Assembly: GCA_031460175.1 (NCBI GenBank)
Contig: JAVKGW010000002.1
Location: 310,001-374,000 of the forward strand
Length of the DNA: 64,000 nt
Reading direction: 5' to 3'
Source of the DNA: Armatimonadota bacterium
GTDB taxonomy: Bacteria > Sysuimicrobiota > Sysuimicrobiia > Sysuimicrobiales > Sysuimicrobiaceae
A model generated the notes under the pieces. The model was not told the origin of the DNA. It saw only the letters and a program-made list of their open reading frames with translations, and did no database searches. The position numbers and the translations under genes were made by a program. Position 1 is the stretch's first letter, and each line of letters starts with the position of its first letter. Shown here in pieces: positions 2,867 to 13,921 of the stretch.

Positions 2867-3334
2867 TCACTTCAGGCTCATCAGGTAGGCCACCAGGGCC
2901 CGCAGCTCCGCGTCCGAGAGGTACGCGTAGGAGGGCATGCGTCCCGGAGGTGTACGACGACGGGGGTCCCGGAGCAGGCGCAAAAGCTCCTCGGCGTTCG
3001 TGATCCGGTTTCCCACCCGCGCGAGATCCGGGCCGATCCGCACCGTTCCCAGGGCCGTGGGATTCAGGTGTGCGTAGTCCCCCGGGCGGGAGGCCTCTCC
3101 GAGATCCCCGCTCCGGGCCACCACCCCGAACCGGGCCTCCGGGATCCGCACCTGCTGGGTGTGACACTGGGCGCACCCCTCCCGGAGGTACACCGCGTAC
3201 CCCCGCTGCGGCTCCCCCACCAGCGTCCGGGTCGCCCGCGCGGGGGGGACCGCGGGGAGCAGCACCGTGACCACAAACCCGGCGAGGGCGGTGACCAAGC
3301 ACATCAGGGGTAGCGAGGCAGCACGCGTCTGCAT
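2867..3334 (-). CDS. CcoO/FixO-like cytochrome c subunit
   Basis: A 155-residue protein with an N-terminal membrane anchor (about residues 8-28) and one heme c site in the context YLREGCAQCHTQQVR, which is the signature of CcoO, the monoheme subunit of cbb3 oxidases. The later stretch GPDLARVGNRI and the methionine in GRMPSYAYLSD also match CcoO. In a normal cbb3 oxidase this subunit passes electrons to CcoN. Here the neighbouring CcoN-like protein lacks all metal ligands, so the acceptor is uncertain. The usual CcoO is about 200 residues; this one is shorter, mainly in the loop after the heme. Confidence 0.82.
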   Translation of the reverse strand: MQTRAASLPLMCLVTALAGFVVTVLLPAVPPARATRTLVGEPQRGYAVYLREGCAQCHTQQVRIPEARFGVVARSGDLGEASRPGDYAHLNPTALGTVRIGPDLARVGNRITNAEELLRLLRDPRRRTPPGRMPSYAYLSDAELRALVAYLMSLK

Positions 3335-3344
3335 CCCGACCTCC

Positions 3345-4736
3345 CTACACCGCGAGCACCAGGTCCCGCTCCGCCGCGGGAACCTCGATCCCGGAATCCG
3401 CGGTGAGGAACACGTTCCAGCAGAACGCCACCTGCCCGAAGGCCACCAGACCGAGGGCGATGGCCCGGGCCGCCAGGTACGGGACCACCGCGTTCACCCC
3501 GTGGCCGAAGGGCACCGTACCCGTGGCCCACACCGCGCCCTGCACGAGGCCCGCCATCAGGAGGGCTCCCGCGGCCAAAAACCACCCTCCCGTCCACGCC
3601 CAGAAGTGCCACCAGGCGAGCCGGGGGCTGACCAACACCCGCCCGACGGCGGCAGGGATCATGACGTACGCGGCACCCAGAGCCACGGATCCCGCTCCGG
3701 CACCCAACAGGAGCGCCGTCCTCGCCTCCGTCCACAGGGTGAGACCGGCGATCCGGGCGGGGCCGAGTAGGGCTCCCAGTCCTGCCGCGAGGGCCCCGAA
3801 GAGGAACGCGGCGCTGCCCACCGGGAAGAAGGCCAGCCCGGGGGATTCCGACAGCCGGGCCCACTGTCCCTCCAGGGCCCGCCACACCCCCGCGGCGGTG
3901 CTTGCCGCGGGGATCAACAGGAGGAAGCCGGCGACCGCTCCCACCGTCTGTGTCCAGAAGGGCACCGGTCCCCAGATGAACTCGGAGCCGGTGCTGAAGG
4001 GAGCGAAGGCCGCGGTGGTGAGGAGCACCACCAGAGTCAGGGTGGAGTTCGCCTCCCCCGCGTTCGGTCGCCCACCGGCCAGACTCAGGGCCACCGCGGA
4101 GGCCGCGCCGAACAACCACAGCCACCCGAGCCCCTGGCGCAAGAACGCCTGCGCCAGGGCGTCCACGATCCCCCAGTAGGGGTTCCCACCCGGCGTGAAC
4201 AGCCCCTTGCCGAGCACCAGGACCACCACGAGCCACGTCACGGAGCCCATCCCGAGCCAGGCAATGGGATCTTCACGTTTTCCCGCCCGCACGGTCCGCA
4301 CAAGACTCCACAGCACCAAGAGCGCCGCGGCCAAGCGCAGGAGATCTGTACTCGGGGGTGCCTCCCCCCACAGCCGACCCCGGGAGATCCCCCGCAGGAG
4401 ATCCCACCAGGCCAGGAGTCCCGCCAGGTTCCACAGCCAGAAGGCGAGGTTCGCCAGGCGTACGCCCCAGAGGGGCTCCCGGACCGTGGACGGGACGATG
4501 GCCAACAGAGCCGCGAGGAGGAGGTTGCTGCAGAACCCGAAGATCCAGAGGTCCCGGGCCGCCGCCATCAGCCGGCCGTAGGAAAGCCACGACACGTCCC
4601 CGAAGATCCCCGGGAAGACCAGGTGGAGGCTCGCGGCGAGCTCGTGGAGGGCCGCTAGGGCTCCCCAGGCAGTCCCCAGGTACAGGAAGCGACGGGAGGG
4701 GCTCCAGGGTTCGTCCGTGAACATCCAGCCCAGCAT
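3345..4736 (-). CDS. CcoN-like membrane protein without heme or copper ligands
   Basis: A 463-residue polytopic protein with about 12 membrane segments that aligns to CcoN, the catalytic subunit of cbb3 oxidases, along most of its length (for example FPGIFGDVSWLSYGR and WWHFWAWTGG). The positions that should hold metal ligands do not. The low-spin heme His of CcoN (GRLRPLHTNAVIFG) is Ala60. The HxH that binds both hemes aligns without gaps to Arg339-Thr-Ala341. The CuB His-His pair aligns to Ser251-Glu252. Only four histidines remain in the whole protein (31, 38, 377, 412). It therefore cannot be a classical oxidase. It starts three bases after the stop of a small membrane protein and is followed by the CcoO-like gene. 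It may be a structural or quinone-binding anchor. The alignment was made by eye against remembered CcoN sequence. Confidence 0.75.
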   Translation of the reverse strand: MLGWMFTDEPWSPSRRFLYLGTAWGALAALHELAASLHLVFPGIFGDVSWLSYGRLMAAARDLWIFGFCSNLLLAALLAIVPSTVREPLWGVRLANLAFWLWNLAGLLAWWDLLRGISRGRLWGEAPPSTDLLRLAAALLVLWSLVRTVRAGKREDPIAWLGMGSVTWLVVVLVLGKGLFTPGGNPYWGIVDALAQAFLRQGLGWLWLFGAASAVALSLAGGRPNAGEANSTLTLVVLLTTAAFAPFSTGSEFIWGPVPFWTQTVGAVAGFLLLIPAASTAAGVWRALEGQWARLSESPGLAFFPVGSAAFLFGALAAGLGALLGPARIAGLTLWTEARTALLLGAGAGSVALGAAYVMIPAAVGRVLVSPRLAWWHFWAWTGGWFLAAGALLMAGLVQGAVWATGTVPFGHGVNAVVPYLAARAIALGLVAFGQVAFCWNVFLTADSGIEVPAAERDLVLAV

Positions 4737-4856
4737 CTACGTCTCCGCCACCAGACCGAAGGATGCCACGAACAGCAGCAGCAGGAAGAAGGCAATCCAG
4801 AAGAGGGTGTACCACAAGTAGCTGCGCAGCGTCCGGGGGTTAAACCGCCCGATCAT
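4737..4856 (-). CDS. Small single-span membrane protein
   Basis: A 39-residue protein: a short basic N-terminus (MIGRFNPRTLRSYLW) followed by one hydrophobic helix (about 14-36). The ATG overlaps the stop of the MvhD-like gene (ATGA) and the stop abuts the ATG of the CcoN-like gene, so it is part of the same transcript and is translated in step with both. Size and position resemble the small CcoQ/CcoH-type subunits of cbb3 oxidases, but there is no sequence match I can name. It is likely an assembly or stability subunit of the same complex. Confidence 0.7.
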   Translation of the reverse strand: MIGRFNPRTLRSYLWYTLFWIAFFLLLLFVASFGLVAET

Positions 4857-5293
4857 CGCTTCCCTCCTGTCGTGGTGAGACCCTGGACCTTCTCCACGAA
4901 ATCCCGGACCGCGGCCACGAACGCCTCCTGGTCGTGGAGGCCGTAGGCGAAGAAGGCCACCCGCTCCGGGTCCACCCGCTGGCGCTGCAACCGCTTGCGC
5001 AGCTGGTCGATCCGGCCCTCCATGATCCAGTTCCCCTCCCGGTTCAGGCAGTCCCCCATGGGGCACCCGCACACGAAGACCCCCGCGGCACCGCTGCGCA
5101 GCGCCAATTCCAGCCAGGCGGGCCGCACGAATCCACTGCACGGCACCGCGATCACCGTGACCTCCGGGCACGCCTTCATGGTGCCGTCCGGGTTCAGCAA
5201 CCCTTCCCCCGAGACGGCCCAGTCACATAGGAATCCCACCACCCGCCCAGGACGCTCCGGTTCCGTACGCTCCGTCACCTGCGGCTGCGCCAT
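4853..5293 (-). CDS. MvhD/FlpD-like iron-sulfur electron-transfer protein
   Basis: A soluble protein of 146 residues that matches the MvhD family (delta subunit of methyl-viologen-reducing hydrogenase, Pfam FlpD). The family cysteines are present: FLCDW, KACPE, VPCSGF, FVCGCPMGDC. Known members bind a [2Fe-2S] cluster and connect hydrogenases or formate dehydrogenases to heterodisulfide-reductase-like flavoproteins. Here no hydrogenase or HdrA is nearby; instead it sits 13 bases after a cytochrome b with a ferredoxin tail, with a strong GGGAGGAG ribosome site. It is therefore the likely soluble partner that exchanges electrons with those two [4Fe-4S] clusters. Confidence 0.82.
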   Translation of the reverse strand: MAQPQVTERTEPERPGRVVGFLCDWAVSGEGLLNPDGTMKACPEVTVIAVPCSGFVRPAWLELALRSGAAGVFVCGCPMGDCLNREGNWIMEGRIDQLRKRLQRQRVDPERVAFFAYGLHDQEAFVAAVRDFVEKVQGLTTTGGKR

Positions 5294-5306: not shown

Positions 5307-6476
5307 TCATCCCGTGGGGACCGGGGCTCCCGTGGCCTGCCGGATCCGCTCGTGGATCTCCCGCTCCAGCATCCGCGGAAGCTCAAGGGCCTGGAAGGGG
5401 CACGCTCCGATGCAGATCCCGCACTCCACGCACCGGGAGTCCACCACCACCGCCAGCAGCTTCCGGTTGGCCGCGGCCCGGGTCTTCCCGGGATAGGGGC
5501 TGGGCACCATGTAGATGGCGTTGTACGGGCAGTCGTAGTAACAGAGCTCGCAGCCCGTGCAGTTGTCCTCCACCACCACGGCCACCCCGGGAGATCTGGG
5601 AACCCGGTCAGGATCGTCGGGCAGGGAGTACGGGATCCACAGGCCGTACACCACCAGGGCCATGACCAGCAGCAAGGCCCAGCCGGGGGCCATCCAGCGG
5701 GCCAGCACGTAGGGCCAGAGGTAAAACCAGTCCACCGCGAACCCCTCCGGCTGCGCGCCCGGGGCCGCGGGCCGGCCGCTCGTGGCGGGAAGAACCGCCG
5801 CGAGGAAGAACAGCAGCCCCACGCTGAAGAGGACCCACAGGGCCGGCGGCCACACCTTGGGGTGCCGGATGCGGACGTAGTGCCACCAGAGGAGGACGTA
5901 GAGGGTGACGGCCGGACCCACGTGCAGGAACAGGAACCGGGGAAGGGTGGCATCGCTCACCCCGGGACCGCCCACGAACAGCCGAACCAGGTGCTCCCCC
6001 ACCAGGGGCACGTCCCGGAGGGCCTGGACGGTCAGGCTCGCCAGGAGCTGGCTGCGCTCGTCCCACACCAGCAGATACCCCGTGAACCCCGCAAGCCCGC
6101 TCACGACCAGGAGGAACATCCCCGAGATCCACGCGGAGTCCCTCGCCTTCCGGTAGCGCTCCGTGAACCAGTTCCGGAACAGGTGCAGCAAGATGGCCAC
6201 CATGAAGGCGTCCGCCGCATACCGGTGGATCCCCCGGAAGATCACCCCGTAGGGCACCCGATCCGTGAGGAACTGCACGGAGGCATAGGCACCCTCCAGG
6301 CTTGGCTCGTAGTACAGGAAGATGAGGATGCCGGAGATCACGAGGACGGTGAGGAAGAGGTTTGCGAGACCCCCCGTGTAGTAGAGGGGGTTGAAGTCCT
6401 GCGGGTAGACCCGCTGGATCCACCGGTCCAGCCGCAGGGTCCAGTCCTGCAGCCTCAGGATCGCCTTCCGGTACAC
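5307..6476 (-). CDS. Cytochrome b fused to a two-cluster ferredoxin domain
   Basis: A 389-residue fusion. Residues 1-210 are the four-helix cytochrome b core with all four heme ligands: His84 and His98 in one helix, His185 and His199 in another, both pairs 14 apart. Residues 210-290 add about three more helices, with VDWFY in the place of the PEWY quinol-site motif of subunit IV. Residues 300-362 form a ferredoxin domain with two [4Fe-4S] motifs, C306-x2-C309-x2-C312-x3-C316 and C349-x2-C352-x2-C355-x3-C359. The protein can thus pass electrons between the quinone pool, two b hemes and two iron-sulfur clusters on one face of the membrane. It is followed by the MvhD-like gene and preceded by a small membrane protein and a second, ligand-poor cytochrome b. 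Confidence 0.9.
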   Translation of the reverse strand: MYRKAILRLQDWTLRLDRWIQRVYPQDFNPLYYTGGLANLFLTVLVISGILIFLYYEPSLEGAYASVQFLTDRVPYGVIFRGIHRYAADAFMVAILLHLFRNWFTERYRKARDSAWISGMFLLVVSGLAGFTGYLLVWDERSQLLASLTVQALRDVPLVGEHLVRLFVGGPGVSDATLPRFLFLHVGPAVTLYVLLWWHYVRIRHPKVWPPALWVLFSVGLLFFLAAVLPATSGRPAAPGAQPEGFAVDWFYLWPYVLARWMAPGWALLLVMALVVYGLWIPYSLPDDPDRVPRSPGVAVVVEDNCTGCELCYYDCPYNAIYMVPSPYPGKTRAAANRKLLAVVVDSRCVECGICIGACPFQALELPRMLEREIHERIRQATGAPVPTG

Positions 6477-6480
6477 CCTC

Positions 6481-6912
6481 TCATTCCTCCCGCGCGGTAA
6501 TTCCCGCCCTCCGAAACAGCAGCACCAGGAAGGAGTACAGCATGAGCAGGACCCCCATGGCCCCCGCGCTCACGAGCCGACGATCCGTGAGCTCCCCGTA
6601 CACCACCCCCCCCACACAGGCGAGGGAGGCGAGGCTCAGGAGGACGATGCCCCGGGCGGATCCCCGCTCCCCCCGGGCCAGGATGCGCTCGTACACCCCG
6701 ATCCGACGCCGGATCCGGCCGGCCCGCCGGTCCGCCGCGTACATCACGAGTCCTGCCCCGAGGAAGGCGGCCACGAGCAGCGCACTCCATCCCACGGCCC
6801 GGGCCCAGGTTCCGGGATTTCCCGTCTGCACCGCCGCCCTCCAGGCCGACCATGCCTCCGGCAGGGCCAGGACCGCGGCGGCGAAGGCGAGAAAGAAGGC
6901 GAGCCTCTGCAC
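6481..6912 (-). CDS. Four-helix membrane protein of unknown function
   Basis: A 143-residue protein with about four membrane helices (near residues 5-22, 44-62, 88-108, 115-133) and a basic loop (DRRAGRIRRRIGVYERIL) between the second and third. It begins with GTG two bases after the stop of the second cytochrome b gene, with GGGAG just upstream, and ends four bases before the cytochrome b-ferredoxin fusion. I do not recognise the family. Its place between two cytochrome b genes suggests a small subunit or assembly factor of that complex. Confidence 0.65.
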   Translation of the reverse strand: MQRLAFFLAFAAAVLALPEAWSAWRAAVQTGNPGTWARAVGWSALLVAAFLGAGLVMYAADRRAGRIRRRIGVYERILARGERGSARGIVLLSLASLACVGGVVYGELTDRRLVSAGAMGVLLMLYSFLVLLFRRAGITAREE

Positions 6913-6914
6913 CG

Positions 6915-8075
6915 CTACGCTCCCGAACTCGGGGCAGGCCGCGCCGCGGGGACCGCCCTCGGGGCGGGCCTGGGGGCCGCGGCCTCCGCAGCCCGCACCT
7001 TCCGGCGGTACCGGATCTCCAGCAAAAACCCCAGGGTGAGGGTGAGGGCGGTGAGGACGAGCACGATGTGGGGATCCCGGCCGATCACCGCGATGTTGAA
7101 CAGGATGAGGGCGGTGAAGACCAGGAAGTAGGTAAGGGCCATGATGCCTACCACGGTGAAGAAGGGGCGCTCGCTGGGCCGCCGTCCCTTGCTGCGGTCC
7201 AGGAAGGGCACCAGCATCCCGTAGGCGATGAGGAGCCCCGGTCCCAGCCCCGCCCACAGCGGTGGGGTGTACTTCACGTACTGGTACAGGGCCAGGAAGT
7301 ACCAGTCGGAAAGGATCGGCAGCGGCGTCCGGTTCGGGTCCGCCCGCCGGCCCATCTCCGCGGGGAAGATCCAGCTGGCGGCCACCAGCATCAGCAGCAG
7401 GATCACCAGGGCGGTGGGGGAGAGGTTGAAGCGCTTCCGGCGGGTGAAGATGAAGTACAGCTCCACCAGGATCAAGAGCAGCACGGAGATCCCGAAGTGG
7501 ATGGCGTAAAAGCGGGTGAGGGTTCCCTGGCCCTCCGCGGGGCCGCCGAGGAACGCGAAGGCGATGGCGCTGCCGAACCGGGTCTGGCCGATGAGGGGGA
7601 GCTGGTCCAGGTAGACGGCCACGGTGAGCACCACCTTGGCGGCCCAGAAGGCCCGCTGGTTCCAGATCAGGAGATACCCCGTGAGGCCGGAGATCATGGC
7701 CAGCACCAGGGACCCGAACAGGATCATCCAGCTGAGCTCGTTGGGTCGCTTGTACTCCCCCAGGAAGTACATGCGGTAGATCCGGAGGGTGATGGCGATG
7801 ATGAGCATGTCCGCCCCGTACTTGTGCATCCCCCGGATGAGCCAACCGAAGGGGATCTCGTGCTGGATGCGGAGGATGGAGTTGTAGGCCCCGTGGGTGG
7901 TGGGCTCGTACCAGATCATGAGGAGGATGCCGCTCACGATGACCACGATCCAGGAGAAGTACACGATCTGGCCGAGAAGATAGAGGGGGTTCCCGTAGCG
8001 CTCCACGTTCGTCTCGTCAAAGAGATCCAGCTTCTGCTTGCGCTCACTGAACCACTCCCGCAGGCGCTCCCACAT
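6915..8075 (-). CDS. Cytochrome b (b6/subunit IV fusion) lacking the n-side heme ligands
   Basis: A 386-residue cytochrome b that joins a b6-like four-helix part (1-215) with a subunit IV-like part (about 215-350) and an Ala/Pro-rich tail (355-386). Alignment to b6 is clear (FGWLIRGMHKYGADM, GQGTLTRFYAIHF). His84 and His193, the pair for the p-side heme, are present. Their partners are not: the residue 14 after His84 is Arg98, and those 14 and 15 after His193 are Tyr207 and Phe208. The n-side heme should therefore be absent. The quinol-site motif reads SDWYF instead of PEWY. It follows the Rieske gene by two bases. It probably forms a complex with the Rieske protein and perhaps with the ferredoxin-tailed cytochrome b downstream. 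Confidence 0.88.
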   Translation of the reverse strand: MWERLREWFSERKQKLDLFDETNVERYGNPLYLLGQIVYFSWIVVIVSGILLMIWYEPTTHGAYNSILRIQHEIPFGWLIRGMHKYGADMLIIAITLRIYRMYFLGEYKRPNELSWMILFGSLVLAMISGLTGYLLIWNQRAFWAAKVVLTVAVYLDQLPLIGQTRFGSAIAFAFLGGPAEGQGTLTRFYAIHFGISVLLLILVELYFIFTRRKRFNLSPTALVILLLMLVAASWIFPAEMGRRADPNRTPLPILSDWYFLALYQYVKYTPPLWAGLGPGLLIAYGMLVPFLDRSKGRRPSERPFFTVVGIMALTYFLVFTALILFNIAVIGRDPHIVLVLTALTLTLGFLLEIRYRRKVRAAEAAAPRPAPRAVPAARPAPSSGA

Positions 8076-8077
8076 GG

Positions 8078-8749
8078 TCAGGCGATCCCTCCCGGCTCCA
8101 CCGCGGTCACCACGATCACCCCGTTCCGGACCTCGTAGACGAAGTAGCGGGGAGGACGCGGCGCCGGGCCGGAGAGCACCCGGCCCGGGACCTCCCGGTC
8201 CGCGGGGTCGTAGATGGAGAGGTGGCAGGGGCAACCCAGGAGCCCGTGCCGGCGCTCCGGTGGGGGCACGTAGCCCCCGTACCCCGCCGTGATCTCCCGC
8301 CAGTCCGGCACGTAGTTGAAGATGCATCCCAGGTGCGGGCAGATCCGGGAGAAGACCACGATGTCCGTGGGTTCCTTGCCCTCCTTGTAGCCCGGGAAGC
8401 GCACCTTCCACGGGAGCCGGATGGCCACCCCGGGAACGGTGGCCGCCTTGGCCTGCTCGGGCGTGTACTGCGGGTACTTCTGGGTGAACACGAAGAACTT
8501 GCTGGACCAGGGCTCCGCGAGCTCCTCCAGCCGCGCGATGGGAAGAGGCTCCCCCTTCGGGAGGTCTCCCTCCGCCAGATCCGGCGGAACCTTGCCCTGC
8601 GGCACGCCGAGACCGGGCTCCAGGTTCGGCTTGAGGTAGCGCAAAAGAGGCGCCGCGAAGGCCGCGAGGGCCCCCACGGCGGGGATGGAGGCCACCAGTT
8701 GCAGGAAGGTCCGTCGGTTCACACCCTTTGCCTTCTGCTCCTCCGCCAT
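8078..8749 (-). CDS. Rieske [2Fe-2S] protein of a bc/b6f-type complex
   Basis: A 223-residue Rieske protein. Residues 10-15 (VNRRTFLQ) resemble a twin-arginine start, followed by one membrane helix (about 16-38). The cluster-binding motifs are CPHLGC (near 137) and CPCHLSIYD (near 174), each supplying one Cys and one His plus the disulfide cysteines. An insertion of about 20 residues rich in Pro, Gly and Tyr lies between the two boxes. The protein takes electrons from quinol at the p-side site and gives them to cytochrome c. It starts 13 bases after the diheme cytochrome gene. Confidence 0.93.
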   Translation of the reverse strand: MAEEQKAKGVNRRTFLQLVASIPAVGALAAFAAPLLRYLKPNLEPGLGVPQGKVPPDLAEGDLPKGEPLPIARLEELAEPWSSKFFVFTQKYPQYTPEQAKAATVPGVAIRLPWKVRFPGYKEGKEPTDIVVFSRICPHLGCIFNYVPDWREITAGYGGYVPPPERRHGLLGCPCHLSIYDPADREVPGRVLSGPAPRPPRYFVYEVRNGVIVVTAVEPGGIA

Positions 8750-8762
8750 GCTCCCCCACTCC

Positions 8763-9629
8763 TCACCGGAGATCCGCGGGCGGCTCGTACACGAAGGTCC
8801 ACAGGTAATCTACCACGGCCCAGATCTCGTTGGGGCTGAGTTCATCCCGGAACGCAGGCATGAGCTTCAACCCCCGCCGCTCCACGCCCTCCGCGATGCG
8901 CTGGTAGAGCTCCGTGGGCTTCCGGTAGGCCATCCACTCCCGGTCCGTGAAGATCCCGGGGCCCACCCCCCGGGCCCAGGTCCACACCAGTTCCCGGAAC
9001 TCCTCCGCCCGGGGTCCTCTCCCATCTCCGGCCGGTCCGTGACATTCCGCGCACCTCTGCTGGTAGATCCTCCGGCCCAGCTGCAGCCGCTCCCGGGTGG
9101 TGGTCCGGCTCCACTCCCAGAACACCACGTCCCAGATCTCCTGGTCCGTGAGCCGCGGGGTTCCGCCATCCGCGGCCCCGTACGCGGGGTGCTGGAACCC
9201 GGGCATGGCGGTGTGCGGGCGACCCCGGGCCACGGTCTCGAACATGGAAAAGGGGGTATTGAGCCGCATCTGGTCGAGGTTGTGGAAGTTGGCGGGCCGG
9301 GAGGGAAGGGGCTCTCCCCTCGGGCGGATCCGGAAAAAGCTCAGGAAGTCCGTGTAGAGGTTCTTCTCGGGTGCGGTGAGGGTCTTCGCCATGGGCCCGT
9401 CTCCCCGGCCCTCGGGTCCATGGCAGACCGCGCACCGGGCGTCGTAGGTCTTCTTCCCCGCATCCGCGCTGGGCTTGCGGGGCATGAAGCCCATGCGGAC
9501 CACGTAGCGGGGAAGGGGCTCATAGGCAGGTCCCCGGGGCCCGGCCATCCGGATGTACGGTTGGCAGCCCCCGAGCAGCACCGCGGCGAGGCCGAGGAAA
9601 AAGACACGCACCGCGACGGGTCGGCTCAT
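8763..9629 (-). CDS. Diheme cytochrome c lipoprotein
   Basis: A 288-residue exported protein with a lipoprotein signal: hydrophobic residues 8-20 and the lipobox LLGGC near residue 21, so the mature protein is membrane-tethered by lipid. Two heme c sites follow, CAVCH (near 74) and CAECH (near 189), each in its own cytochrome c domain of roughly 110 residues. Methionine-containing stretches in each domain (TAMPGF, LKLMPAF) could give the sixth ligand. It is the first gene after the promoter at 9717-9745 and precedes the Rieske gene, so it is the likely electron acceptor of the Rieske protein, in the role of cytochrome c1 or f. Confidence 0.88.
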   Translation of the reverse strand: MSRPVAVRVFFLGLAAVLLGGCQPYIRMAGPRGPAYEPLPRYVVRMGFMPRKPSADAGKKTYDARCAVCHGPEGRGDGPMAKTLTAPEKNLYTDFLSFFRIRPRGEPLPSRPANFHNLDQMRLNTPFSMFETVARGRPHTAMPGFQHPAYGAADGGTPRLTDQEIWDVVFWEWSRTTTRERLQLGRRIYQQRCAECHGPAGDGRGPRAEEFRELVWTWARGVGPGIFTDREWMAYRKPTELYQRIAEGVERRGLKLMPAFRDELSPNEIWAVVDYLWTFVYEPPADLR

Positions 9630-9716: not shown

Positions 9717-9745
9717 ATTGTCCAACCTTTCCCGGGATCCGTCAA
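9717..9745 (-). promoter_or_regulatory. Promoter of the diheme cytochrome/Rieske/cytochrome b genes
   Basis: On the minus strand TTGACG (9745-9740) is followed after 17 bases by GACAAT (9722-9717). The -35 element overlaps the TGA stop of ccmE. It would give a leader of about 80 bases before the cytochrome ATG at 9629. This is the only sizeable gap in the 19-kb heme/cytochrome run. Confidence 0.6.
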
Positions 9746-10128
9746 GGCGCGTCCTCCCCTCCCTCGTACTTCGTGGGGCACTTGGTGAGCAGGACCCTCG
9801 CCCGGAACACCCCCTCCGGACCCCACGTCCCCTCCACCACCACGGGCGCCCCGTCCCGGAAGAGGTCCGTCACCACCCCCCGGTAGGTCACGGGCAGCCG
9901 GGCGTCTCCCTCCGCGAGCACGAAAAAGACCCGAGAACCTTCCCGACGGATGCTTCCGGGGACCACGTTCCCCGCCACCCGAACCGGGACGCCGTACGCA
10001 GCCTCCCCCCGGGCCTGAAGTTCCGAGACGGTGACGTAATAGACGGCCGCGGACCGCACCCCACCGTAGACGAGCACACCGAGACCCGCGAGGATGAGCC
10101 CCACGAGCAGGAATCTCCGCCTCTTCAC
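9742..10128 (-). CDS. ccmE: Cytochrome c maturation protein CcmE, Cys-type
   Basis: A 128-residue heme chaperone with an N-terminal membrane anchor (about 6-24) and an OB-fold domain facing outwards (VAGNVVPGSI, FVLAEGDARLPVTYRG, DLFRDGAPVVVEG). In most bacteria heme binds a histidine in an H-x3-Y motif near the C-terminus. Here the motif is CPTKY, the C-x3-Y form known from archaea and some bacteria with a variant System I. It starts with GTG, overlapping the ccmD stop (GTGA). It receives heme exported by CcmABCD. Confidence 0.88.
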   Translation of the reverse strand: MKRRRFLLVGLILAGLGVLVYGGVRSAAVYYVTVSELQARGEAAYGVPVRVAGNVVPGSIRREGSRVFFVLAEGDARLPVTYRGVVTDLFRDGAPVVVEGTWGPEGVFRARVLLTKCPTKYEGGEDAP

Positions 10129-10295
10129 TGGCGATCCTCCACGAACCCGTGCGGTTCTGTCCGCTTCCCCTCCCGCACCTGGGCCTCCAGCCTCGTGATC
10201 TCCTGATGAAGTTGGCTCGTCCGATGGTGCAGCCACATGAGGTACGCCACCAGGGCCACCCACACGAGCCAGTACGCCCAGAACAGGTAGACCAT
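10125..10295 (-). CDS. ccmD: Small membrane protein CcmD
   Basis: A 56-residue protein starting MVYLFWAYWLVWVALVAYLM, one membrane helix followed by a charged helical tail. This layout, the length and the position between ccmC and ccmE fit CcmD, the small subunit that helps release heme-loaded CcmE from the CcmABC complex. It starts one base after the ccmC stop and overlaps ccmE by four bases. CcmD is poorly conserved in sequence, so the call rests mainly on context. Confidence 0.75.
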   Translation of the reverse strand: MVYLFWAYWLVWVALVAYLMWLHHRTSQLHQEITRLEAQVREGKRTEPHGFVEDRQ

Positions 10296-10296
10296 G

Positions 10297-10968
10297 CTAC
10301 CCGCTTACCTCGATGCGCAGGCGTCGCACGGCCCCGTCCAGGAGCCCCACCCGCAGACGCAGGCGCACCAGAGCCGCGTACAGGAGGATGAAGGCGAAGA
10401 GCGTCATCACCAGGGCGTGCACCATGGCGGGCTCCAGTCCCGTGGGCCTGCCCGCGGGATCCTGCCCGAAGACCACGGGGTGCACGCCGCGCAGCAGGCG
10501 GACGCTCAGGAACACGAGCGGCAGGTTCAGAAAGGCCAGGATGCCCACCACCGCCGCAAAGCGGCGGGCTCGGTCTCCCTCCGAGACCGCGCGGAGAACG
10601 AGATATCCCAGGTACACCAGCTGCGTCAGGAGGGTGCTGGTGAGCTGCGGTTCCCACGTCCACCACACCCCCCAGGTGGGCTTGGCCCACACGGCTCCCG
10701 TGAGGAGCACGAGCCCGTTGAACAGCACCCCGATCTCCGCGGAGGCTCCTCCGAGTTCGTCCCAGTAGGCTTCCCGGGCGCGGAGGTACTGGATCCCCGC
10801 GCCAAAGGTCACGAGGAAGGCCAGCAGAGCCGCTCCCCACAGGCCCAGGTGCACGTAGAAGATCCGCTGCAGGTGGCCCATGATCCGCTCGGTGGGGGCG
10901 TAGAAGAAGCTTCCGTACCACGCCAGGGACAGCGCCACCACCAGCGCCCCGGCCTCCAGACGCTTCAA
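10297..10968 (-). CDS. ccmC: Heme exporter/handling protein CcmC
   Basis: A 223-residue protein with six membrane helices. It carries the tryptophan-rich heme-handling motif as WGVWWTWEPQLTS (near residue 100; the usual form has WD in place of WE) and flanking histidines in FYVHLGLWG and GVHPVVF that can bind heme. CcmC attaches heme to CcmE. The ATG overlaps the stop of the ccmAB fusion (ATGA). No ccmF or ccmH homolog lies in this window, so the ligation step must be encoded elsewhere. Confidence 0.92.
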   Translation of the reverse strand: MKRLEAGALVVALSLAWYGSFFYAPTERIMGHLQRIFYVHLGLWGAALLAFLVTFGAGIQYLRAREAYWDELGGASAEIGVLFNGLVLLTGAVWAKPTWGVWWTWEPQLTSTLLTQLVYLGYLVLRAVSEGDRARRFAAVVGILAFLNLPLVFLSVRLLRGVHPVVFGQDPAGRPTGLEPAMVHALVMTLFAFILLYAALVRLRLRVGLLDGAVRRLRIEVSG

Positions 10969-12341
10969 GATCCGTCCTCCACCACGGCTTCGAAGAGCAG
11001 CAGACTCGCGGCCCCCAGGATGATAGCAAAGGCAGCTACCAGCCGCAATTCAGGCCACGCCTCGCCCAGCGGCAGTCCCCGCAGGACCTTCGCCGTGGCT
11101 CCCACGCTGCCGATGAGGAGGGGGAGGGCCAGGGGCACGAGGAGGAGCGGGAGCATCAGCTGCCGCAGGCGGGTGTTCGCGGCCACCACGCTGAGCAGGG
11201 TTCCCGGGAGCCCCAGGCCTGCGCTGCCCAGCAACAGGACCGCGCCCAGGGAGGCCACCCGGCGGGGATCCAAGTCTACGTTCAGCAGCACGGCGAACAC
11301 GCCGAGGCTCAGAGCCTCCACGAGCAGCATCCACAGGAAGGTGCTGGTGGCCTTCGCGCCCAGGATGGCGGCCCGATCCACGGGGCTCGCGAGTACGGCC
11401 CACCCCGCCCGCTGCTCCTGCTCCAGTTCATACGCGCGCCCAAGCCCCAGGAGGGCGGTGAAGGTGACGGTGGTCCAGAGGATCCCCGGCCCTGCGGAGG
11501 CCACCACCGCGGGGTCCAGCCCCACAGCCACGCTGAAGAGCACCAGGGCCACGAGGGCCATGGTCCCCATGGAAAGGAGGATCTCCCGGGCCCGCAACTC
11601 GATCCGGAGGTCCTTGCTGACCAGCGCCCGGTAGGCTGTCCAGAATCCGGGAACCCGGCCGCCTCCCGGCAAGGCCGCGGTGGCCGGAGGGCGGGAGGAT
11701 CCCGCCTCCGGCACCAGCCGCCCGTCCCGCAGGCCCAGGATCCGGTGGCAGAGTCCCGCCACCTCCTGGGGTCGGTGGGTGGTGAGGACCAAAGCCCCCC
11801 CGGAGGCAAGGTAGCGGAGCAAGGTGGTGCGCAGCCAGTCCGATCCCTCCGCGTCCAGGCCCGTAAAGGGCTCGTCCAGGAGGAGGAGGGCGGGCTGGGG
11901 CAGGAGGGCCCGGACGAGGCTTACGCGCTGCTGCCACCCCCGGGAGAGGTTCCGCACGAGCTCCCCCCGCCGCGCTCCCAGCCCGCCCTCCTGGATCAAC
12001 CCCTCCACCCGTTCGGGGGCTACCCCGTAGAGCACGGCGAACAGGCGCAGGTTCTCCTCCACGGTGAGGCCGCCGTACAGGAAGGTCTCGTGCCCGGTCA
12101 TCCCCAACCGGATCCGGACGGCCTGGGGTTCGTGCCACGGATCCAGACCGAACAGCCGCAAGCTCCCCCTATCCGGCCGCAAGAGGGTGGCGAGGACGCG
12201 CAGGAGGGTGGTCTTTCCCGAGCCGTTGGGCCCCACGATGGCCACCGCCTCCCCGGGATACACCTCCAGGTCCACCTCCCGCAGCACCCGGTGCTCTCCC
12301 AGGGCTTTTCGGATCCCTCTCGCGGAGAGTACGGGGGACAC
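10965..12341 (-). CDS. ccmAB: CcmA-CcmB fusion: heme-export ABC transporter
   Basis: One continuous 458-residue frame holds both parts. Residues 1-205 are the CcmA ATPase: Walker A GPNGSGKTT, signature NLSRGWQQR, Walker B LLLLDEPFTG and the H-loop TTHRP. After a Ser/Pro/Gly linker at about 210-235, residues 240-458 are CcmB, with about six helices and the typical opening VSKDLRIELRAREIL. CcmA and CcmB are normally separate proteins; no stop or start break is visible between them. The GTG start at 12341 follows a TGAGGT ribosome site and lies five bases before the stop of the upstream gene. Confidence 0.88.
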   Translation of the reverse strand: MSPVLSARGIRKALGEHRVLREVDLEVYPGEAVAIVGPNGSGKTTLLRVLATLLRPDRGSLRLFGLDPWHEPQAVRIRLGMTGHETFLYGGLTVEENLRLFAVLYGVAPERVEGLIQEGGLGARRGELVRNLSRGWQQRVSLVRALLPQPALLLLDEPFTGLDAEGSDWLRTTLLRYLASGGALVLTTHRPQEVAGLCHRILGLRDGRLVPEAGSSRPPATAALPGGGRVPGFWTAYRALVSKDLRIELRAREILLSMGTMALVALVLFSVAVGLDPAVVASAGPGILWTTVTFTALLGLGRAYELEQEQRAGWAVLASPVDRAAILGAKATSTFLWMLLVEALSLGVFAVLLNVDLDPRRVASLGAVLLLGSAGLGLPGTLLSVVAANTRLRQLMLPLLLVPLALPLLIGSVGATAKVLRGLPLGEAWPELRLVAAFAIILGAASLLLFEAVVEDGS

Positions 12342-12346
12342 GGACC

Positions 12347-13921
12347 TCAGGTCGAAGACGCCAGCAGACGGGCCTCGAGGGCTTGCCGGAGGACTTGCCC
12401 GTCGAAAAGGAAGAAGGGGTAGCCGCGGTAGGTGGCCGCCGCGTACGCAGCCTCCTGCTGCTCCAGCCGGGTCAGTGCCTCCCGGACCCGGCGGATCTCT
12501 TCCGCGAGGGGGGCGCTCAGCTCCTGGTTGATGGCCCGGATCCGATGGGTGAGCGCTCGGCGCTCCCGGCGGGTCAGGGACTCCTCCTGGAGTCGTCGGA
12601 TGAGCGCCCACTTCTCTTCCACCAGGCTGCGGAGGCGGGGATCCTGGGGTTCTAGGATTCGGTCGGGGTTGTGGAGGAGCTCGTGCAGCCGCTGTTGGAG
12701 GCGTGCCCGCTGGATCCCCGGGTCATCCGGGGAGGGCAGCGGGAGGTGGAAGGTGGCGGTGACCACGGCGAAGGGGGGAGGGTCCAGGGCGAACAGGTTA
12801 CGGATCAGCCGGTCCGTGGCACGGTCGTAGAGGGCGCCCCCGACCCCGTGCACGAAGAGATCCGCCACGCACACCCGCACGAACAGGGTGAGGGCCATGC
12901 CCCTCGGCCGCAACCCCAACCCCGCGAGGACCTCGGGGGGCGTGCGGGGACCCACCCGGGCAAGTTCTCCCTCCTCCGTGGAGAGGACCACCTCCTCCCC
13001 GGCCCGCTGGGCGAACACCGGCCGCCGCCTCCCCTCCCGCACGGCCCACAGGGGGAGCTCGTAACGGTCCGACCACCGCCGCAAGTTGGGGAACGGCTGG
13101 GCCGCAGATCGGATCCCCTCGGACTTGCGGTGGGCCTCCAGGGCCTCGTTGTACGCAGCCCAGAAGGACTCGCAGGTACTCGCCATCCAACGGGCGAACC
13201 GCAGGAACCCCCGGGTCCGGCACAGCCAGGAGATCGGGAGCTCGGGGTACGCGGCGGCCGGTTCGAAGGCACGTCGCAGGCGCGCCACGAACTCTCCCAG
13301 GCTCTCGCACGCCTCCCGCTCCCGCTCCCCGAGCACCCTCAACCGCTCCAGGCCCGAGAGGAGGGCGGGATCGCCCAGGGTCGCGAGATCCTGACGAACC
13401 GCCTCCACCCACTCCCGCCACCGTGTCCGTGCGGGCGGCGGGGCTGCCTCAAAGGGGACGTCGGGGGGGCACCGCACCAGGGCCCGGTGCACGGTCCGCA
13501 GCTCCCCGTCCCACCGCGGCACCGCCACATCCAGCACTTCCACCGCATCGCTGTCCACGATGAGGTTCAGGGGCCGGACTCCCGGACACAGGCCCAGCAC
13601 CAGGGTCTTCGCCCAGATCCCGGGGTGATGGAAAACGGGCTGGTGGCCGGTGACCACGAGGGGCCCTGAGCCCTCCCCGGTTTGGAGGCCCCACCGGAGG
13701 CCGAAGCGGGCTGCGGCCGCGAGGACCTCCTCCCGAACCTCCCGGCGGAATGCCCCCAGGGCCTCGCCGTCCAGGCGGGCAGGGCTACGAGCCAGGCTCT
13801 CCGCGTTCGCCTCCGCCACGGCCGGCCAGCACGGCAGGGGAGGGAGGCACACCACCTCCCCGGAGCCCCTGGGAATGCTCGGTCGCGGGGTCTCCGCCGC
13901 CTGCGGGCGGTCCCTCCTCAC
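12347..13921 (-). CDS. Unrecognised protein, possible BshC-like partner of BshB1
   Basis: A protein of up to 524 residues that follows the BshB1-like gene with a GTGA overlap. It has the motif VTGHQPVFHHPG near residue 90, similar to the VTGQQ motif of BshC (the last enzyme of bacillithiol synthesis), and a long charged C-terminal helical region (about 390-490) ending in YPFFLFDGQ. Mid-protein sequence LTLFVRVCVADLFVHGVGGALYD resembles uncharacterised proteins of planctomycetes rather than Bacillus BshC. I therefore call the BshC link tentative: context and one motif support it, the rest does not clearly align. The start is uncertain; a GTG overlapping the previous stop is used, another lies about 20 codons inside. 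Confidence 0.55.
   Translation of the reverse strand: MRRDRPQAAETPRPSIPRGSGEVVCLPPLPCWPAVAEANAESLARSPARLDGEALGAFRREVREEVLAAAARFGLRWGLQTGEGSGPLVVTGHQPVFHHPGIWAKTLVLGLCPGVRPLNLIVDSDAVEVLDVAVPRWDGELRTVHRALVRCPPDVPFEAAPPPARTRWREWVEAVRQDLATLGDPALLSGLERLRVLGEREREACESLGEFVARLRRAFEPAAAYPELPISWLCRTRGFLRFARWMASTCESFWAAYNEALEAHRKSEGIRSAAQPFPNLRRWSDRYELPLWAVREGRRRPVFAQRAGEEVVLSTEEGELARVGPRTPPEVLAGLGLRPRGMALTLFVRVCVADLFVHGVGGALYDRATDRLIRNLFALDPPPFAVVTATFHLPLPSPDDPGIQRARLQQRLHELLHNPDRILEPQDPRLRSLVEEKWALIRRLQEESLTRRERRALTHRIRAINQELSAPLAEEIRRVREALTRLEQQEAAYAAATYRGYPFFLFDGQVLRQALEARLLASST

Follow-up and report, generated by a model that had tools for sequence, protein, structure and literature searches.

The question raised by this locus is how a Rieske/cytochrome b complex could work when its cytochrome b lacks the ligands of one of its two hemes. 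In known b6f and bc1 complexes, a single kind of cytochrome b with two b hemes forms the dimer. In the stretch of 64,000 nucleotides analyzed here (the window), which belongs to a genome of 2.49 Mb with a completeness of 98.9%, a gene at positions 6915–8075 of the minus strand, referred to as cytb1, encodes a cytochrome b with b6 and subunit IV in one chain of 386 amino acids, and not in separate chains as in b6f. Its open reading frame has an ATG start and eight predicted trans-membrane helices and matches the Pfam families Cytochrome_B (E 5.9e-32) and Cytochrom_B_C (E 1.4e-7). Close relatives of the window locus were found at 88–89% identity, and one relative bears the name CSP1-3, which is placed in Candidatus Sysuimicrobiota. 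Searches of the window for Rfam families and tRNAs found nothing.

A sequence-only reading of the window had claimed that cytb1 has lost both n-side heme ligands, that this is not decay and that a standard Q cycle cannot run inside this chain. Alignment to the b6 of solved structures (6rqf, 1q90 and 1vf5) places His84 at the first p-side His and Arg98 at the second His of the same helix, while His193 falls at the next p-side His and Leu-Tyr-Phe, including Tyr207 and Phe208, at the last b6 His. Cytb1 homologues were collected at 109 loci by two overlapping searches, of which 108 passed a filter of at least 300 residues (the one dropped had 197 matched residues at a contig end); clustering at 97% gave 79 clusters, window included. 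Positions 84 and 193 are His in 108/108 loci. Position 98 is always Arg or Lys (100 and 8 loci; 73 and 6 clusters, respectively), position 207 is Tyr in 73 loci, Phe in 25, Leu in 8 and Met in 2, and position 208 is Phe in 99, Tyr in 5, Ile in 3 and Val in 1. None of the 108 loci has His at 207 or 208, and none carries all four His ligands. When cytb1 was aligned together with 22 canonical cytochromes b taken from other genomes (two of these proteins were the weakest profile matches), all 22 canonical proteins had His at columns 84, 98, 193 and 207. Another conserved His that could take the place of the missing ligands, which would have undone the earlier claim, was looked for and not found: the next best position, 166, has His in 50/109 rows vs. 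109/109 at 84 and 193. A shifted alignment that hides a replacement His is therefore rejected, and so is a sequencing error or pseudogene, given the same residues in 108 loci and the low dN/dS of cytb1 (0.06–0.23 in seven pairs), which indicates strong purifying selection. The ligand replacement is thus borne out, and the intact reading frame and dN/dS agree with the claim that it is not decay.

To characterize the heme pockets, we used 16 columns in helices A to D that are conserved in at least 21/22 canonical cytochromes b and in 95% or more of the sequences of cytb2, the partner cytochrome described below. Cytb1 keeps G35, G49, A63, R81, H84, G133, Y134 and H193 in 109/109 rows, and G77 is present in 107. 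H98 and H207 are gone (0/109 each), and R112 (kept in 19/109), W116 (51/109) and G119 (24/109) are relaxed; the loop columns P160 and G163 are mildly relaxed (kept in 86 and 93 of the 109 rows, respectively). In the known topology of cytochrome b, R112, W116 and G119 belong to the first part of helix C, which is on the side of H98 and H207. With both ligands lost and the relaxation on that side, the n-side heme site of cytb1 has mostly been abandoned, whereas the p-side site is untouched. The release is not complete, since G35 is retained although it too is located towards the n-side. Lys and Tyr are able to bind heme iron in other proteins, which would allow an n-side heme of cytb1 to be held by Lys/Arg98 and Tyr207 instead of His. 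We regard this as extremely improbable, because 73/79 clusters have Arg at position 98, 21/79 have Phe, Leu or Met at position 207 and Gly119 is replaced in 85/109 rows. Heme cn was also rejected as a substitute heme. The Cys that binds it covalently, which we take to be b6 Cys35, is found neither in cytb1 (0 Cys in 109 rows at position 33) nor in cytb2 (0/99, with Tyr in 99/99), which is a further difference from b6f. With ligands absent in 108/108 loci and n-side pocket residues relaxed, the cytb1 chain alone would not run a complete Q cycle, as had been proposed.

Two acidic residues were also observed. Glu205 is invariant in 109/109 main-set cytb1 rows and does not occur at that position in the 22 canonical cytochromes b; its column is a gap in two divergent rows (genomes G391 and G392, see below). 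It is possibly a filler of the n-side pocket, and a salt bridge to Arg98 is only a lead. Asp89 is invariant in the main-set rows of both cytb1 (109) and cytb2 (99) and absent from 22/22 canonical rows. It may be a mid-membrane acid common to the two cytochromes, and its presence in both hints at a common descent of the pair, without being proof, as the tree described below is unrooted.

An AlphaFold2 model of cytb1 (pLDDT 81.6) has eight long membrane helices, and its top Foldseek matches among structures are bc1 cytochromes b (E 8e-11, probability 1.00). At the quinol site, the motif SDWY replaces PEWY in 79/79 clusters. The Rieske iron-sulfur protein is encoded at 8078–8749 of the minus strand, and its cluster-binding sequence (CPHLGC...CPCHLSIYD) is intact. 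It matches NCBIfam TIGR01416 (5.6e-10) and the Pfam Rieske family (E 0.0056), both below cut-off; the cluster ligands are intact in 107/107 rows, and the gene is found upstream of cytb1 in 72/72 testable loci of the genome_contigs set. The adjoining gene (8763–9629, minus strand) encodes a diheme c-type cytochrome with two CxxCH motifs, which may accept electrons from the Rieske protein on the p-side. Cytochrome c maturation genes for CcmE, a CcmC-like protein and an ABC ATPase/CcmB (9742–12611, minus strand) lie directly upstream of the cluster, and CcmB shares one frame with the ABC ATPase. A genome search found MenD and did not find the MqnA/D family, so the quinone is likely to be menaquinone. 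The cytochrome b fold, the p-side heme ligands, the Rieske partner, the c-type cytochromes and the PEWY-like motif are all shared with b6f and bc1. Unlike b6f and bc1, however, the cluster encodes two different b proteins, one without n-side ligands and one fused to [4Fe-4S] motifs.

The second cytochrome b, the FlpD-like protein next to it and a ligand-less oxidase-like subunit were overlooked in the sequence-only reading, which to that extent was incomplete. Cytb2 (5307–6476, minus strand), the second gene downstream of cytb1, encodes a cytochrome b with six predicted trans-membrane helices followed by two [4Fe-4S] motifs of eight Cys. Between the two genes, a small hydrophobic protein whose start codon is uncertain (6481–6918, minus strand) has no family match in Pfam or NCBIfam, and open reading frames resembling it were seen in relatives. 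All four His ligands of cytb2 (H84, H98, H185 and H199) are present in 98/98 loci, and the eight Cys are invariant or nearly so in 37 rows. A model of cytb2 has six membrane helices and lacks the last two. The N-terminal side of known cytochromes b is the n-side; with six helices, the ferredoxin domain of cytb2 would be on that same side, and its two [4Fe-4S] motifs are therefore predicted to face the n-side. The equivalent of the quinol motif in cytb2 has F, L or W instead of Tyr. As SDWY is found in all cytb1 clusters and cytb2 has neither the Tyr nor the last two helices, each pair would have one intact quinol site. The n-side heme that cytb1 is missing is probably supplied by cytb2.

The gene after cytb2 (4853–5293, minus strand) encodes a FlpD/MvhD-like [2Fe-2S] protein (Pfam FlpD, 7.5e-27), whose four Cys are conserved in 67/67 rows and which is a probable cytoplasmic electron carrier for cytb2. 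It also matches the C-terminal part of HdrA2 (1.2e-21, NCBIfam). In NCBIfam, the ferredoxin part of cytb2 matches residues 569–641 of archaeal HdrA2 and FlpD matches residues 635–774; the two thus match neighboring parts of the MvhD/HdrA2 C-terminal module, but in this cluster one portion of the module belongs to a cytochrome b and the other to a small protein of its own, with no HdrA beside it. In nine clusters listed gene by gene, with open reading frame starts read by eye, no obvious HdrA or NAD(P) reductase was found directly beside flpD; two of them (L052 and L055) have a ferredoxin and flavoprotein pair on the opposite strand, 1–2 kb on. Elsewhere in the window genome (L141, 9222–12623, G000:C7) there is a large HdrA-like flavoprotein with two flavin parts, a ferredoxin and its own FlpD domain, which is a possible partner of the low-potential side. 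The end of flpD is overlapped by a 39-amino-acid peptide (4737–4856, minus strand), single-helix by its sequence, of which a 30-amino-acid core has no family match in Pfam.

Among testable genome_contigs loci with enough flank, cytb2 adjoins cytb1 in 67/67 and flpD comes next in 62/62. Cytb1 and cytb2 distances are correlated over 71 clusters (r 0.97), and within two groups r is 0.89 and 0.96 vs. shuffled maxima of 0.29 and 0.19; this shows that the two are co-inherited, not that they are in contact. In an unrooted tree, cytb1, cytb2 and canonical cytochromes b form three separate supported clades. The window genome has only two PF13631 matches, both in the cluster, and a second bc complex that would cover the heme loss is therefore rejected for this genome; separate canonical cytochromes b exist in other genomes of the same order (L120–L126, L130 and L131). 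The loss of two ligands by cytb1, like the loss of six metal ligands by its CcoN-like neighbor in the window clade, could be read as a sign that cytb1 is structural or decaying and that cytb2 alone is the working cytochrome b. This is very improbable, given that cytb1 is under purifying selection, that its p-side ligands and SDWY are invariant in 79/79 clusters, with the p-side ligands also found in a third phylum, and that it is cytb2 whose quinol-oxidation motif is degraded and whose last two helices are missing.

The pair was found in Sysuimicrobiota (CSP1-3), in non-photosynthetic, Melainabacteria-type Cyanobacteriota and in a third phylum. In the window's order, 37/42 other genomes have a cytb1 match with E <1e-50. 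Among 292 Cyanobacteriota genomes sampled, a full-length cytb1 match (E <1e-160) was found in 5 and no match in 147; the matches in the other 140 (about 1e-40 to 1e-47) are mostly to frames of 215–270 amino acids, whose length and score point to PetB. One genome of the third phylum (G156) carries a complete cluster, and two others, G391 and G392, carry a very divergent cytb1/cytb2 pair at 29–33% identity. The latter clusters, which also include FlpD (L159, 2001–3269 and 799–2022; L160, 1793–3091 and 3054–4274), keep the one-heme/two-heme asymmetry: cytb1 is still H-R-H, and cytb2 has four His and the [4Fe-4S] motifs (in G391, the cytb2 sequence stops behind the first of these, where the locus ends). 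The Rieske gene is absent from both clusters, and no convincing Rieske protein was found elsewhere in these two genomes (best E 0.195 in G391 and nothing in G392), although the Pfam model performs poorly on this family, giving E 0.007 even for the window's own Rieske protein, so that a miss is possible. Because no Rieske gene accompanies the pair in these clusters, Rieske-driven bifurcation may not be its core function.

The gene pairing suggests a heterodimer rather than a homodimeric cytochrome b. Separate cytb1 homodimers and cytb2 homodimers are a conceivable alternative. In cytb1, heme bp would have no n-side heme to pass electrons to, and the nearest known exit is the bp of the other half, so that a cytb1-cytb2 heterodimer would restore a path. 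We consider it rather likely, on the genes at hand, that cytb1 pairs with cytb2 in an obligate, asymmetric heterodimer, making up a split Rieske/cytochrome b complex with a bL-bL route into the cytb2/FlpD chain; the heterodimer, its heme occupancy, the bL-to-bL route and the direction of the electrons are all what we infer from the genes. Cytb1 would hold the quinol-oxidizing site beside the Rieske protein and, as its only heme, bp (bL). One electron of the quinol would go to the Rieske protein and on to the c-type cytochromes. The other would go to heme bp of cytb1, where it could not cross the membrane, so quinol electrons probably reach the cell inside only by moving from one half to the other. 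That electron would pass over the dimer interface to heme bp of cytb2 and from there, via the n-side heme of cytb2 (bn) and the two [4Fe-4S] clusters, to FlpD. In ordinary bc1, the bL-bL bridge is dispensable. In engineered bc1, heme bL-bL transfer takes place on the catalytic timescale of milliseconds, and in fusions of Rhodobacter capsulatus bc1 whose two cytochromes b are each inactivated in the opposite half, electrons are forced across bL-bL (PMC4330944). The cytb1/cytb2 pair, known here from its genes, has the same layout as these cross-inactivated fusions, but the latter are artificial mutants without an iron-sulfur output, whereas the pair described here has become fixed in nature in three phyla.

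The same bL-bL route could also serve an ordinary Q cycle in the heterodimer, in which quinone is reduced at the n-side of cytb2 and the iron-sulfur motifs and FlpD are regulatory or a minor branch; that the route sustains turnover in cross-inactivated bc1 (PMC4330944) is consistent with this. We consider it improbable, as the eight cytb2 Cys and four FlpD Cys are conserved and the presence of flpD in 62/62 testable loci suggests a main rather than a minor role. A stronger alternative, unlikely but far from negligible, is that the same heterodimer works as an input, with electrons from ferredoxin or another soluble donor passing via FlpD and the [4Fe-4S] clusters to the n-side heme of cytb2 and to quinone. 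Such a flow would be downhill, and the region of HdrA2 that is matched by FlpD and the two-[4Fe-4S] part, its C-terminal one, is an electron-wiring module. The best-known role of FlpD/MvhD is to conduct electrons into HdrA, with which input fits as well as output, and a comparable input from ferredoxin to b6f has been postulated for cyclic electron flow. Also in its favor, a partial complex I is reported in Melainabacteria, like that of Saganbacteria without NADH-binding subunits (PMC6349859). The window genome, however, has two NuoF homologues, so NADH can enter at complex I, and input alone leaves unexplained why cytb1 has lost its n-side heme in every lineage despite an invariant quinol-oxidation motif. 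On balance, our analysis favors output, in which quinol would drive the reduction of a low-potential acceptor in the cytoplasm, somewhat over input or plain quinone reduction at the n-side site. We tentatively propose, as a serious possibility, that the halves divide the Q cycle, with quinol oxidation in one and transmembrane and low-potential delivery in the other, that the bL-bL bridge is the sole route between them, that bifurcation yields reduced cytoplasmic FlpD or ferredoxin and that the oxidase subunit is a metal-free scaffold in some lineages.

The oxidase subunit in question is a CcoN-like homologue of heme-copper oxidase subunit I (3345–4736, minus strand; COX1 7.4e-25; ccoN 5.6e-26, far below cut-off). 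Unlike C-type heme-copper oxidases, it has 0/6 of the His ligands for heme b, heme b3 and CuB in the window and in five other loci (L033, L034, L035, L037 and L051), whereas all six are kept by the orthologues in 49 further rows, most of whose loci carry Melainabacteria or Cyanobacteria in their titles. The frame is open in all six ligand-less genomes, and a dN/dS of 0.13–0.57 points to a gene that is relaxed yet still constrained. In eight loci of the CSP1-3 type whose flanks are long enough, no such gene was detectable. The window genome has four further COX1 homologues, all scoring strongly, and therefore probably does not need the gene at 3345–4736 to reduce oxygen. That gene is followed on the minus strand by genes for a FixO/CcoO-like monoheme cytochrome c (2867–3334; FixO 6.4e-19) and a membrane-anchored monoheme cytochrome c (2286–2858), each with one CxxCH.

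In Melainabacteria, petB and petC, encoding cytochrome b6 and the Rieske protein, have been described near a C-type oxygen reductase as complex III/IV (PMC6349859). This is probably the same gene cluster; the portion of that paper available to us makes no mention of paired cytochromes b, missing ligands or FlpD. The relevant portions of PMC7368068, PMC8235220, PMC6451369 and PMC11604079 hold nothing on the cluster beyond general statements on complex III, and PMC6606698 was rejected as a precedent because it concerns cytochrome bd. The output reading resembles a proposal for the Rieske/cytochrome b complexes of anammox bacteria (Kuste4569–4574 and Kustd1480–1485), in which the low-potential electron is diverted to an n-side iron-sulfur/flavin chain and not to quinone (PMC12954380, excerpted text). 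The anammox complexes, however, are modeled as homodimers that contain an additional central heme and subunits of the NAD(P) oxidoreductase type, and the excerpts report no ligand loss. Unlike such NAD(P)H-producing complexes, the window cluster has no NAD(P) oxidoreductase subunit among its ten proteins in a Pfam scan. Neither a cytochrome b naturally without n-side ligands nor such a heterodimer was found in the open-access literature searched. The parts are known; their arrangement, a variant of the Rieske/cytochrome b complex, was not found in that literature and is regarded here as new.

Electron transfer between the two halves has been argued over for years in bc1/b6f physiology and has been tested with engineered asymmetric mutants. 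Here, nature has apparently fixed the asymmetry across three phyla, so that electrons would be obliged to pass between the monomers, which could be tested directly. Should the n-side path be an output, the pair would represent a second, differently built form of quinone-based electron bifurcation that makes a low-potential reductant, and it would occur in close relatives of the oxygenic Cyanobacteria and in Sysuimicrobiota.
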